NCBI GenBank assembly: GCA_031290475.1
Contig: JAITNM010000112.1
Span: 1 to 32,264 of the forward strand
DNA from: Treponema sp.
GTDB lineage: Bacteria; Spirochaetota; Spirochaetia; Treponematales; Breznakiellaceae
Length of the DNA: 32,264 nt
Reading direction: 5' to 3'
The notes below the pieces were generated by a model. The model was given only the letters and a program-made list of their open reading frames with translations. It did no database searches and was not told the origin of the DNA. Positions 2,289 through 9,730 of this stretch are shown here, piece after piece; within the stretch, counting starts at the first letter, position 1, and each line of letters begins with the position of its first letter. Position numbers and translations under genes: made by a program.

Positions 2289-3845
2289 CTAGGTGAATTT
2301 TTTGGCAACGATCCCGCTGATTACTTCGTAGAGGGGCGACAGTTTGTCGAAAACCTTGGTAAACACTTCACTGTAAAGCTGCTCGTAGATCTGGTGTTCC
2401 TGCGGCTTGGGTTCAAATTCATCCTTTATGTGAACCATTTTCCCGATTCCTTCCTCGTAGGATGAAAAGACCCCTTTTGCCACGAAGGCTGCCAGAGATG
2501 AACCGATACCGGTGGCCTCATGGGTCTGGATCCGGTAAACCGGGAGGCCGAACATGGAGGCGGTGATCCGGCAGATCTCGTCACTCTGAGCCCCGCCGCC
2601 CGCGGCAAAGAGGCTTTTTATCTGCATATTTCCCCGCTTTTCCATGTAATGCAGCCCATCCATAAGGGCGAAGTTGATGCCTTCAATAATTGCACGGTAA
2701 ATGTGTATTCTTGTGTGTATGTCTGAGAAGCCAATAATGGCCCCCTTGGCAAAGGGCATGTTTACCCCGGGGGTAAAGTAGGGCTGCATGATTAGGCCGT
2801 CGCAGCCCGGCGGGATTTCCTTGAGCCTGTTGTCCAGCAGTTTTTCCGCGTTCAGCCCGAGTTTTGCGGCTTCTTCCATTTCTTTGGCGGCAAATTCCCG
2901 CTTGAACCAGTTGAGGAGCCAGTAGCCCCGGTAAATTTCAATCTCCGGGTTAAAATAACCTGGAACCACCGCCGCATAGGATGGCATGAAAGGCTGGGGC
3001 TCGAAGTATTTTTGAGACGACAGTTGTACTGTTGCGGTAGTGCCAAAACTCAGCGCCGCCTTGCCGTTATCCAGGCAGGAGAGCCCCAAGGTTTCGCAGC
3101 CCTTGTCGCTTCCTGTGGCGATGAGGGGCAGGCCTTTGGGAATACCTGTGTGTTCTGAAGTTTCCGCCGTAATGCCGCCGGTAACCGTTCCCGGTTCTAC
3201 CAAATCGCAGAGCTTGCCCTTGGTGACATAAAATATCGCCCAGCGGAAGTCCCGGTTTTTGTACCAGTTCCGCGTCTTGGAATCGAAGGGGAGGTGGCCT
3301 ATGGCGCTGGCGGTAGAGTCAACCAGGTTTCCGGTGAATTTGTAATTGAGCCAGGCTGAAATGAAGACATATTTCTCTGTCTTATCCCACCTTTCCCTGT
3401 CGTGGTAGGCGAGCCAGTTGCAGTGGCTTCCCGCCCGTTGGATGGCTACCCCCTCCTTCATTCCCACAAGACGGTACAAAGAATTGGCGAACGCGGACAC
3501 CGGCGGGATCTTATCCGCCTTGCGTTCATCAAGCCAGAGGATAACGTTCCCCAGAGGATTGCGGTTCCTGTCCAGGCAGACCACCGTGTCCCGGATAGTG
3601 GAGCAGGTTACGGCAATGATGTCCTTCCACAAATCACCGGCTTTTTCTTTTAAAGAGCGGCTTGTCTCACCGATACATCCCCAGTAATAATCAGCCCTCT
3701 GTTCCGCCCAGCCGGGGTTTTGTGAAAAATAGGGCGGATCATAAGGTTTTTGAACTTTGTGAAGAATGTCTCCCCTGGCGTTTACGAGGAGCGCCCTGGT
3801 GCTTTGGGTGCCTATATCAAAAGTTAAGATCAACGGTTCCGTCAT
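2289..3845 (-). CDS. FGGY-family carbohydrate/polyol kinase
   Basis: This is a 518-residue kinase of the FGGY family (xylulokinase, glycerol kinase, ribulokinase and relatives), which phosphorylates a sugar or polyol with ATP in the cytoplasm. The N-terminal phosphate-binding motif is DIGTQSTRALLVN with Asp10. The middle holds GSDKGCETLG and LSFGTTATVQ, and the C-terminal ATPase lobe has EGINFALMDGL and GGGAQSDEICRITASMFGLP. The sequence differs from classical GlpK around the substrate site, so glycerol should not be assumed. Its ATG overlaps the stop of the upstream FAD dehydrogenase by four bases (ATGA, 3842-3845), so translation is coupled and a shared pathway is likely: kinase makes a polyol phosphate, dehydrogenase oxidises it. 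Neighbouring ketose or erythritol-type pathways are alternatives. It converges on fic with a 27-base gap. Confidence 0.88.
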   Translation of the reverse strand: MTEPLILTFDIGTQSTRALLVNARGDILHKVQKPYDPPYFSQNPGWAEQRADYYWGCIGETSRSLKEKAGDLWKDIIAVTCSTIRDTVVCLDRNRNPLGNVILWLDERKADKIPPVSAFANSLYRLVGMKEGVAIQRAGSHCNWLAYHDRERWDKTEKYVFISAWLNYKFTGNLVDSTASAIGHLPFDSKTRNWYKNRDFRWAIFYVTKGKLCDLVEPGTVTGGITAETSEHTGIPKGLPLIATGSDKGCETLGLSCLDNGKAALSFGTTATVQLSSQKYFEPQPFMPSYAAVVPGYFNPEIEIYRGYWLLNWFKREFAAKEMEEAAKLGLNAEKLLDNRLKEIPPGCDGLIMQPYFTPGVNMPFAKGAIIGFSDIHTRIHIYRAIIEGINFALMDGLHYMEKRGNMQIKSLFAAGGGAQSDEICRITASMFGLPVYRIQTHEATGIGSSLAAFVAKGVFSSYEEGIGKMVHIKDEFEPKPQEHQIYEQLYSEVFTKVFDKLSPLYEVISGIVAKKFT

Positions 3846-5733: not shown

Positions 5734-5766
5734 AGGCGGCATTGGGATAGTTAATCAGCGCCGCCT
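5734..5766. repeat. Degenerate inverted-repeat element between divergent promoters
   Basis: AGGCGGC (5734-5740) pairs with GCCGCCT (5760-5766). The right arm includes AATCAGCGC, the same core found in the cloverleaf-like element at 6998-7065. The left arm lacks the matching GCTG, as if partly deleted. It sits between two divergent promoters, so it may matter for their control or simply be a relic. Confidence 0.45.
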
Positions 5767-5800: not shown

Positions 5801-5829
5801 TTGACCTTTTACCGGTGATTTCCTACAAT
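5801..5829 (+). promoter_or_regulatory. Sigma70-type promoter of the cystathionine-enzyme operon, with inverted repeat over the -35
   Basis: TTGACC (5801-5806), a 17-base spacer and TACAAT (5824-5829) make a strong promoter. The predicted start at about 5836 rules out the GTG at 5815 and supports translation from ATG 5848. The perfect inverted repeat AGGTCttGACCT (5796-5807) covers the -35 box and could be an operator, perhaps for one of the Rrf2 regulators encoded downstream. The operator role is a guess. Confidence 0.55.
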
Positions 5830-5847
5830 TATGCTAGGATTATCCGA

Positions 5848-6993
5848 ATGAAACGCGGGACGCTCTTAATTCACAATGGGCATGAGACTGATGCGGTAGT
5901 TGGGGCCAATACAGGGGCCCTGGGGATACCCATATACCAGACTTCCACCTATGATCAGGGGGATCTGTCGGAGTATAGGGAGTACGACTACTCCCGGTCG
6001 GGAAACCCCACCCGTAAAGCCCTGGAGGAGATCATCGCCGTTCTGGAAGGGGGGGCCAAGGGCTACGCCTTTGGGAGCGGCATCGCTGCGGTGGCCTCCG
6101 CCCTGGGAATACTTGCCGCAGGGGATCACGTCATCGCGGCGGAGGACATATACGGCGGCTCCTGGCGCCTCCTCAATAGCTTCTACCGGCGCTGGGGTCT
6201 GGAACATACCGCAGTGGACGCTTCGGACCCGGATAATATCAGAAGGGCAATAAAACCCAACACTAAAGCTCTGTTTCTGGAGACCCCTTCAAACCCGCTC
6301 CTCAAGATAACGGATTTAAAAGCCTGCATCGCCATTGCCAGAGAAAAAGAACTCATTTCCATCGTGGATAACACCTTCATGACCCCTTATCTGCAGCGGC
6401 CTATTGAGGCGGGAGCGGATATTGTGATCCATTCGGCCACCAAGTTCCTGGGGGGCCACAGCGATGTGATTTCCGGACTGGCGGTAACCCGCACCGAGGC
6501 CCTGGGCAGGGAACTGTACCGGGTACAAAACGGATTCGGGGCGGTGCCCGCGCCCTGGGACGCCTGGCTTGTGATGCGGGGGATCAAGACTCTCAGGGTA
6601 CGGCTTGAAGCCCAGCAAAATTCCGCCCGGCGGATTGCCGCATGGTTTCAAGCGCATCCCAAGGTCACCGGCGTATATTACCCCGGCCTGGAGGACCATC
6701 CGGGCAAAGGCATACACGACGCCCAGGCGGATGGGCCGGGGGCGGTGTTCTCCTTTAAAACGGAAACCACAGAACAGGCGGTCAAATTCTTAGGCCAGGT
6801 TAAGTACGCCGCGGCTGCGGTCAGTCTGGGCGGGGTGGAGACCATCGCTTCCTACCCGGTAAGGATGAGCCACGCCTCAATTCCGCCTGCTGAACGGCAG
6901 CGCCTTGGAATCAGCGACACCTTGATCAGGATCTCTGTGGGCCTTGAAGAAAGCGAGGATCTCATCGCCGACTTTGACCAAGCACTACGATAA
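5848..6993 (+). CDS. Cystathionine gamma-synthase/lyase family PLP enzyme (first of two)
   Basis: This is a 381-residue member of the Cys/Met-metabolism PLP family. Visible are the PLP phosphate/substrate motif YSRSGNPTR, the aspartate that binds the pyridine nitrogen in IVDNTFMTP (Asp174) and the Schiff-base lysine in HSATKFLGGHSD (Lys199). The C-terminal SLGGVETIASYP and RISVGLEESEDLIADF are typical. Such enzymes make or break cystathionine, or use O-acyl-homoserine with sulfide; the reaction cannot be assigned by eye. The start chosen is ATG 5848, with AGGA at 5836-5839. The in-frame GTG 33 bases earlier lies upstream of the predicted transcription start. It leads an operon with a second family member and two Rrf2 regulators, which points to methionine-cysteine interconversion under redox or cysteine control. 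Confidence 0.9.
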   Translation: MKRGTLLIHNGHETDAVVGANTGALGIPIYQTSTYDQGDLSEYREYDYSRSGNPTRKALEEIIAVLEGGAKGYAFGSGIAAVASALGILAAGDHVIAAEDIYGGSWRLLNSFYRRWGLEHTAVDASDPDNIRRAIKPNTKALFLETPSNPLLKITDLKACIAIAREKELISIVDNTFMTPYLQRPIEAGADIVIHSATKFLGGHSDVISGLAVTRTEALGRELYRVQNGFGAVPAPWDAWLVMRGIKTLRVRLEAQQNSARRIAAWFQAHPKVTGVYYPGLEDHPGKGIHDAQADGPGAVFSFKTETTEQAVKFLGQVKYAAAAVSLGGVETIASYPVRMSHASIPPAERQRLGISDTLIRISVGLEESEDLIADFDQALR

Positions 6994-7075
6994 AGGAAGC
7001 GCTGATTGCCGAAACTTCGTTTCGGATGCAACCGGGCATTCGGACTTTAGTCCATAATCAGCGCTGCTTTAAAAG
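6994..7075 (+). repeat. Cloverleaf-like inverted-repeat element between the two PLP-enzyme genes
   Basis: The outer stem AGCGCTGATT (6998-7007) pairs perfectly with AATCAGCGCT (7056-7065) and can extend through AAAG/CTTT. Inside are three small hairpins: CCGAAAC/GTTTCGG (7009-7025), ATGC/GCAT (7026-7039) and GGACT/AGTCC (7042-7053). The result resembles a three-armed junction of about 68 bases. It is not a tRNA, since the arm sizes, anticodon arm and T-loop do not fit. The right end, starting GTCCATAATCAGCG at 7050, resembles the element at 1391. It may be a small non-autonomous mobile element or an intercistronic RNA structure that sets expression of the second enzyme. Confidence 0.65.
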
Positions 7076-7087
7076 GAACGGATAGTA

Positions 7088-8287
7088 ATGAATGAAGAAG
7101 CCCATTGTAAAACGTATCCTCAAGATGGATTTTCCCGGTCAACCCTGGCGGTCCACGGCGTCACCTTGTTTGACCCTGTTACCGGCGCTATCAGCACCCC
7201 TATTTACCAGAGTTCCACGTTCTGCCACCCCGGCCTCGGGAAATCCACGGGGTTTGACTATTCCAGGGAGGTCAACCCCACCCGGCAGGAGCTGGAAAAG
7301 ACCATTGCGCTTTTGGAAAAAGGGAAATACGGCTTGGCCTTTTCCAGCGGCATGGGGGCGATCTCGGCGGTCATCAAACTTTTCAAGCCCGGTTCCCACC
7401 TCATCATGTCCGAGGATCTCTACGGCGGCACCTATCGGCTCTTCAATGATTACTACGGCAAGTACGGCTACTCTTTCTCCTGGGTGGATACCAGCAGCTT
7501 TGCCAGCATCGAAAAGGCCCTGAAAAGTGAAACCGCGGGACTGTTCATAGAGACCCCTTCGAATCCTATGATGAAGGTTACCGGTATAAAGGGCTCTGCG
7601 GAATTCATCCACCGCCATGGGGGCCTCCTCGTTGTGGACAACACATTCCTCTCTCCCTGGTATCAGAACCCCCTGGAACTCGGCGCGGACCTGGTCGTCC
7701 ACAGCGGGACCAAGTACCTTTCGGGGCACAACGATACCCTCTCGGGCTTTATCGTCCTCTCGGATCCCGCTCTGGAAGCGGAACTGCGCACCATCCAGAA
7801 AAGTGAAGGCGCCTCCCTCTCGCCCTTCGATTCCTGGCTTACCCTGAGGGGGATCAAGACCCTGGGGATAAGGATGGAAAAACACAGCCTGAACGCCAAA
7901 AGGATCGCCTCCTGGCTCAGGGAACAGAGCCTGGTAGAAAAAGTGTTCTACCCGGGGTTCGAGGATCACCCCCAGTACAGGTTAAGCCGGGAACAGGCCA
8001 GGGGAGACGGGGGGATGGTGTCCTTTTACCTTAAACATGCTGAAGACGTGGCAGTATTACTGCGCAGTGTTTCCCTCATTCTCTTTGCCGAAAGTTTAGG
8101 CGGCGTGGAAACACTTATTACTTATCCCCTGGTGCAGACCCACTCGGCTATTCCGGAGGCCATGCGCCTTTCCGCAGGGGTAAACGACCGGCTCATAAGG
8201 CTGTCGGTGGGGATTGAAGATCCTGAAGATCTCATCGCCGATCTTTCTCAGGCGATTGAAACATGTAAAAAGGAGAGAAACAAATGA
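7088..8287 (+). CDS. Cystathionine gamma-synthase/lyase family PLP enzyme (second of two)
   Basis: This 399-residue paralogue of the preceding enzyme has the same fold marks: YSREVNPTR, LVVDNTFLSPWYQNP with Asp184, and the Schiff-base lysine in HSGTKYLSGHND (Lys209). C-terminal SLGGVETLITYP and RLSVGIEDPEDLIADL follow. Two such genes in tandem usually divide the labour, either a gamma-synthase with a beta-lyase (methionine synthesis) or a lyase with a partner for reverse transsulfuration. Which is which is not decidable here. AAAGGA at 7072-7077 lies ten bases before the ATG, directly on the edge of the upstream hairpin element. Its stop overlaps the start of the first Rrf2 regulator by four bases (ATGA, 8284-8287), so the regulator is translationally coupled to the enzyme. 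Confidence 0.9.
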   Translation: MNEEAHCKTYPQDGFSRSTLAVHGVTLFDPVTGAISTPIYQSSTFCHPGLGKSTGFDYSREVNPTRQELEKTIALLEKGKYGLAFSSGMGAISAVIKLFKPGSHLIMSEDLYGGTYRLFNDYYGKYGYSFSWVDTSSFASIEKALKSETAGLFIETPSNPMMKVTGIKGSAEFIHRHGGLLVVDNTFLSPWYQNPLELGADLVVHSGTKYLSGHNDTLSGFIVLSDPALEAELRTIQKSEGASLSPFDSWLTLRGIKTLGIRMEKHSLNAKRIASWLREQSLVEKVFYPGFEDHPQYRLSREQARGDGGMVSFYLKHAEDVAVLLRSVSLILFAESLGGVETLITYPLVQTHSAIPEAMRLSAGVNDRLIRLSVGIEDPEDLIADLSQAIETCKKERNK

Positions 8288-9175: not shown

Positions 9176-9203
9176 TTAGTGTCTGTCCATAAAGTCGGTT
9201 ACT
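9176..9203 (-). repeat. Copy of the gene-3'-end element
   Basis: Read on the minus strand from the hemerythrin stop, AGTAACCGACTTTATGGACAG and then ACACTAA follow immediately. The segment matches 26 of 27 bases of the copy at 17237-17263. Just beyond, TACAAACGC occurs twice (9147-9155 and 9164-9172), 17 bases apart. Confidence 0.75.
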
Positions 9204-9685: not shown

Positions 9686-9709
9686 TGCATCCGAGCGTAA
9701 ATCAGCACT
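9686..9709 (-). repeat. Possible decayed relative of the cloverleaf-like element
   Basis: On the minus strand, AGTGCTGATT (9709-9700) is followed closely by CGGATGCA (9693-9686). The intact element at 6998 has AGCGCTGATT, then CGGATGCA with a hairpin between them. The copy here looks like a relative with the middle deleted, now lying in the hemerythrin leader. Confidence 0.3.
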
Positions 9710-9730
9710 TTTCTAATTTTCTTGGTATAG

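Follow-up and report, generated by a model that had tools for sequence, protein, structure and literature searches.

The cloverleaf-like element between two Cys/Met metabolism PLP enzyme genes (A and B) in the 32,264-nucleotide stretch of Treponema sp. DNA analyzed here (the window) combines a simple hairpin with two inserted micro-hairpins and does not represent the basic form of its family; its shape arose because the micro-hairpins H1 and H3 entered a repeat unit, P1. A two-layer origin is probable. In the first layer, P1 would be a palindromic, MITE-like repeat with TA(A/G) as its insertion site, frequently within a gene's stop codon, and would spread alone or in mosaics with two further hairpins, P2 and P3, using a transposase supplied in trans. 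In the second layer, P1 would act as a landing site for micro-hairpins of ~15–19 nt (H1, H3, and others in related species), the insertion of which at a fixed point of the P1 arm would convert one hairpin to a three- or four-way junction. Unrelated genes, mainly transposases, would also receive these micro-hairpins, and the window copy would be a P1 unit in which H1 and H3 have both been inserted.

Anatomy of the Window Copy

The cloverleaf itself is real (Table 1). The arms AGCGCTGATT and AATCAGCGCT pair perfectly in a structure spanning 68 bases (6998–7065), and the 10-bp stem and the hairpins of 7 and 4 bp given in the preliminary description were all recovered, whereas its third hairpin of 5 bp has only 4 pairs in this copy, one fewer than the 5 pairs of the family consensus. 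The last A of H1 doubles as the first base of the inner P1 stem. The minimum free energy was −32 kcal/mol on the transcribed strand, compared to an average of −19.3 for shuffled sequences (z −3.4), and −28.8 kcal/mol on the opposite strand (z −3.1), with a branched fold on either strand. ARAGORN found no tRNA at the element (locus L001), in agreement with the earlier reading. However, 1.2 pairs of perfect 10-bp arms spaced 30–60 apart are expected per Markov-shuffled window, and since an inverted repeat of this length is thus expected by chance, the anatomy of a single copy is weak evidence and recurrence decides.

Table 1. Positions of the P1 unit, its parts and the adjoining genes in the window.
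Feature	Position	Strand	Evidence
Gene A, Cys/Met metabolism PLP enzyme	5815..6993	+	ORF; PF01053 E 7e-141 on 5848-6993
TAA, stop codon of gene A and left flanking triplet of the element	6991..6993	+	Sequence
P1 repeat unit with both micro-hairpins (cloverleaf)	6994..7069	+	15 places in own genome at E ~1e-8 or better
Outer stem (10 bp), left arm AGCGCTGATT	6998..7007	+	Fold, inverted repeat
Micro-hairpin H1, G-CCGAAACTTCGTTTCGG-A, in P1 left arm	7008..7026	+	13 exact copies of the core in own genome; net 16-nt insertion in C253 transposase pseudogene
Inner P1 stem-loop ATGC-AACCGG-GCAT	7026..7039	+	Fold, covariation, covariance model
Micro-hairpin H3 in P1 right arm, TCGGACTTTAGTCCAT, decayed from TCGGACTTTAGTCCGC	7040..7055	+	Core copies elsewhere; insertions in IS630, IS256 and C253 transposases
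Outer stem, right arm AATCAGCGCT	7056..7065	+	Perfect pairing with left arm
Right flanking TAA triplet	7070..7072	+	Sequence
Gene B, Cys/Met metabolism PLP enzyme	7088..8287	+	PF01053 E 1.7e-137
Decayed right half of another P1 unit	9686..9716	+	80% over 30 nt, E 0.002 for window

P1 Is a Dispersed Palindromic Repeat

When the 82-bp element was used as query against its own genome (3.2 Mb, 306 contigs, 87% complete assembly), the 15 places found included the element itself, so the further genome-wide copies that had been anticipated are present. The common form of P1 reads AGCRYTGATT-inner stem-AAYCGA-inner stem-AATCAGYGCT with the right end CTTTAA, and its base unit is a covarying hairpin of 15 bp bounded by TA(A/G), often with the hairpins P2 and P3 next to it; in many copies, P2 and P3 follow and make up a 127-bp mosaic with P1. 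Searching with a P1 covariance model gave 79 matches in the own genome, which is not a locus count because palindromes are counted on both strands, and matches in 26 of 58 genomes sampled from the family. Thus, P1 belongs to a dispersed, multi-copy, non-coding family with inverted repeats and not, as first proposed, to a small family clustered around the sulfur operon, while its description as a family of mobile or structured elements holds in that the copies are structured, with a covarying base stem, and probably mobile. P1 copies adjoin unrelated genes, examples of which, judged from their ORF translations, are presumably rpmI, uvrB, accA, fabG, and radA. The link between P1 and P2 was found in 13 named stretches, all from metagenome-assembled Treponema or Spirochaetaceae genomes, which we take from their isolate codes to be of termite-gut origin, and gave 0 matches in viral contigs (viral_contigs). 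No paper on such repeats in Breznakiellaceae was found in the literature searched, and a term look-up in PMC13067680 brought up no comparable repeats or transposons.

The stem was compared across 23 of the 25 distinct plain P1 sequences, two of 47 nt being left out; the listing of units itself excludes two rejected by the loop filter, as well as some variants that the pattern did not capture. In this alignment, 96.5% of the cells were paired and 7 of 15 pairs had changed on both sides, and the covariation score was reached by none of 500 shuffles, so that the covariance check across copies came out in favor of a covarying 15-bp base stem. A DNA palindrome copied from arm to arm would covary as well, and the covariation is therefore no proof of an RNA function.

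Two further P1 units were seen directly after tRNA genes: one after tRNA-Met in L018, where the terminator-like hairpin of the tRNA follows the unit, and one after tRNA-Cys in L013.

Within the window, one of the two additional copies claimed earlier, at about 9686–9709, corresponds to a decayed right half of P1 (Table 1), while the other, at 5734–5766, is reduced to a stretch (5749–5765) too weak to call (E 0.23–0.25).

Ends and Probable Insertion Sites of P1

The base following TA was identical on the left and right side in 19 of 23 composite copies (permutation p ~1e-4; 30 loci, minus 3 without a right end and 4 without a left end). The match of this TAN triplet is asymmetric, CTAA being far above TTAG, unlike a classical symmetric target duplication. 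The left end of P1 lay on an upstream stop codon, or one base from it, in 8 of 30 units compared to 6 of 78 controls (p 0.0015), when upstream ORFs of at least 100 codons were considered and 78 non-disrupting CTAR sites served as controls. Further examples of this siting are found at genes that we assume from their translations to be rpmI, uvrB, accA, and radA. As the triplet is present on both sides, the upstream stop codon is kept.

The position of the element in the spacer of two Cys/Met-type PLP genes was confirmed, and the corresponding spacer was empty of the element in 19 of 19 relatives having A and B adjacent on the fetched locus, in several of them consisting of a ribosome-binding site only. 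This comparison started from 30 fetched loci, out of 39 genomes with a match among the 58, and 10 relatives' loci, in which no upstream gene A could be located, were dropped. Matched triplets, stop codon siting and the empty spacer of the relatives together fit a MITE-like insertion, and P1 is most likely a MITE-like repeat. In one relative (L135, G002:C106), a P1-P2-P3 copy was located ~50 bp downstream of the gene B ortholog, a different place beside the same gene.

Micro-Hairpins in P1 and in Transposase Genes

P1 units were found in all four possible states, namely plain, with H1 only, with H3 only, and with both, as in the window copy. Since P1 is palindromic, the left slot equals the right slot on the other strand, and both represent one site, GATT/ATGC. 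The hairpin sequences of the slot include TCGGACTTTAGTCCGC and GNCGAAACTTCGTTTCGNA, and in other genomes it holds CGCCATATATGGCG, CGCCAACTGCGTTGGCG, CGGGCTAAAGCCCG, a longer CGCCAACGC hairpin, a AGATAACCG hairpin, or a CGTCAACC hairpin.

The cores of H1 and H3 were also found outside P1. Among 13 exact copies of the H1 core, 12 lie in P1-like units, one of which has a decayed outer stem, and the remaining copy lies in contig C253 of the same genome. The 8 exact copies of the H3 core are distributed over P1 (three), IS630 (two), C253, a MazF-like gene, and an intergenic site (one each). In C253, both hairpins are located within one broken transposase gene, which was named from its reading frames and homologs, Pfam giving no match for the two segments tried. 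Exactly 14 nt are missing at the H3 site in 4/4 homologs covering it, and the H1 site is a net 16 nt shorter in 3/3. The same broken gene contains a third additional segment of ~58 nt, which carries GC-rich hairpins and is bounded by CAT repeats (L220, G000:C253, ~3490–3550). In the IS630 transposase, H3 (+15 nt) adds five residues inside TPKHGSWLNMAEIE compared to three plasmid homologs (TPKHGS-[DFSPR]-WLNMAEIE), and in a genome of another genus (G052), H3 (+15 nt) occurs in an IS256 transposase as a 5-residue insert (VQLC..VH) compared to two homologs. The MazF-like gene (C93) is at most a possible fourth case of such an insertion, as one homolog has a 5-residue gap and the other none, and the loop length varies. 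Very short repeats are thus precisely inserted at unrelated sites: H3 occurs in three transposase genes, H1 occurs in one of them, and P1 contains both, with homologs that are free of the inserts.

The occurrence of the same tiny hairpins inside transposase genes makes them look like extremely small mobile DNA, and from the sequence comparisons we infer that H1 and H3 are independently spreading hairpins that move as units. We tentatively propose that H1, H3, and the other slot hairpins may be true mobile DNA of ~15–19 bp, among the smallest known in bacteria, which would enter in single-stranded hairpin form, bearing a T..C (or G..A) edge and replacing ~1 base, prefer existing palindromes and transposase genes, and build cloverleaf-like structures stepwise. 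The edge rule is based on few cases, with L141 and L093 as exceptions. A broad class of T..C micro-hairpins was considered and rejected: a 418-kb sample contained 513 perfect short hairpins compared to ~335 in the Markov expectation, only 6 of 1270 hairpins recurred, and T..C/G..A flanks were not enriched (69 vs. 57), indicating that the micro-hairpins are few. The weak recurrence and the unenriched edge suggest that they may spread rarely or arise by templated insertion.

According to the latter explanation, the micro-hairpins would not be mobile at all but would be copied from P1 by templated insertion or gene conversion, through template switching during repair or replication. Template switching favors hairpins, and the low number of recurring micro-hairpins in the 418-kb sample, the varying net sizes of the inserts (+14, +15, +16, and +17), and the lack of a clear target duplication at the inserts are consistent with such copying; the presence of H1 in two P1 subfamilies could likewise reflect gene conversion. 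On the other hand, the inserts stop at the hairpin boundaries and carry no random P1 flanks, H3 is found in three unrelated transposase genes from two genera, one of which is represented by G052, where the covariance model search gave no match to P1, and, apart from H1 and H3, the P1 slot accommodates at least six other hairpins. We regard templated insertion as rather unlikely, though it deserves serious consideration.

If the micro-hairpins do move as units, they would place a very low size limit on mobile DNA, and the near-exact empty sites would provide a concrete system in which to look for the enzyme or replication process that inserts 15-nt hairpins. It would also follow that a plain hairpin can develop step by step into a branched nucleic-acid structure, that covarying cloverleaf folds should be read as riboswitches with caution, and that part of the intergenic structure and some of the disrupted genes in these spirochetes are explained.

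Candidate Machinery and Function of P1

No transposase with ends matching P1 was found in an end comparison that covered IS630. IS630 itself was rejected as the parent, as its two partial copies in the own genome have different ends, and a transposase between neighboring P1/P3 copies was likewise rejected, the contigs holding ordinary genes with none evident.

A mobilization of P1 by a RAYT (Y1 tyrosine) transposase, which would make it a REP/REPIN-type repeat, is improbable. P1 does resemble the GTAG/CGTC REPs, BIMEs, and REPINs, in the sections of PMC3733652 and PMC3116915 considered here, as a short intergenic palindrome arranged in BIME-like mosaic arrays near the 3′ ends of genes, and its common right end AAAGTAGC, when reversed, shows GTAG beside the stem, as do many copies on the reverse strand. 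In contrast to these repeats, P1 has a 15-bp stem and end triplets that match on both sides, and the window copy has GCAG instead of GTAG. Furthermore, no association with a RAYT transposase emerged: the own genome lacks Y1_Tnp (0 matches), and this family was present in 13 of 26 P1-bearing compared to 21 of 32 P1-free genomes (58 genomes; Fisher p 0.29).

The preliminary description had also connected the element to the stoichiometry of the two enzymes, and a sulfur-operon regulatory RNA (attenuator, riboswitch, or processing site) that sets the relative amounts of the two PLP enzymes would agree with the stable fold on the transcribed strand between co-directional genes and with the covarying stem, but we rejected it as highly improbable, as the element is present in the spacer of 0/19 usable relatives, other copies adjoin unrelated genes, no Rfam family matched at gathering score in the whole window, and no T tract follows the stem, the sole terminator-like site in 6900–7180 being at 7146, away from the element. 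With the family dispersed and the spacer of the relatives free of it, a role in enzyme stoichiometry is unlikely to be conserved, and, as a side effect, the A–B intercistronic mRNA probably gains a stable hairpin from the element.

Comparison with Known Repeats

Small dispersed repeats of cyanobacteria, attributed to Elhai 2008, are reportedly tiny, hairpin-forming, and precisely inserted, also into other repeats. The micro-hairpins, likened to them here by description, measure ~15–19 nt, come from spirochetes, and occupy a fixed palindrome slot as well as transposase genes. By analogy, P1 seems to work like MITEs and H1/H3 like the cyanobacterial repeats. The repetitive hairpin-forming elements of mitochondria, as presented in the sections of PMC2800124 considered, are similar in that single or multiple hairpins spread, some of them in genes without frameshifts; here, however, the hairpins are bacterial and are located mostly within transposase genes and a host repeat.

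Bacterial MITEs with TA ends include RUP, CREE/NEMIS, and ERIC (PMC2229807). With these, as far as the sections considered describe them, P1 shares a size below 200 bp, non-coding and palindromic sequence, TA ends, intergenic location, and multiple copies. It differs by the modular palindromes P1, P2, and P3, by a matched TAN triplet that often lies on a stop codon, by the invasion of micro-hairpins, and by a parental insertion sequence that was not found in the comparison with IS630.

Associated Palindromes

Another palindromic repeat (TAGGAGYYTGTCGG...) abuts the P1-P2-P3 mosaics at CTAG in L047, L075, L050, L063, L041, and L072, and in L072 it stands in place of P3. A lone P2-like hairpin, GCACTTTC-GCAATGAAATGA-GAAAGTGC, was seen in L081 (G013), from another family of the order, which suggests that P2 may predate P1 or be more widely distributed.

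As to the resemblance previously noted between the right arm and an element at 1391, the palindrome at 1387–1440 shares only the GCGCTGCTTTAA end with P1, and the best model match had E 0.05. This palindrome, with 27-nt arms ending in GGATAGACACTA, is a different dispersed one, to which a TAGTGTCTGTCCATAAAG stretch near 9176 of the window is related, and a similar stretch is located upstream of the same PLP gene in L113 (G052).
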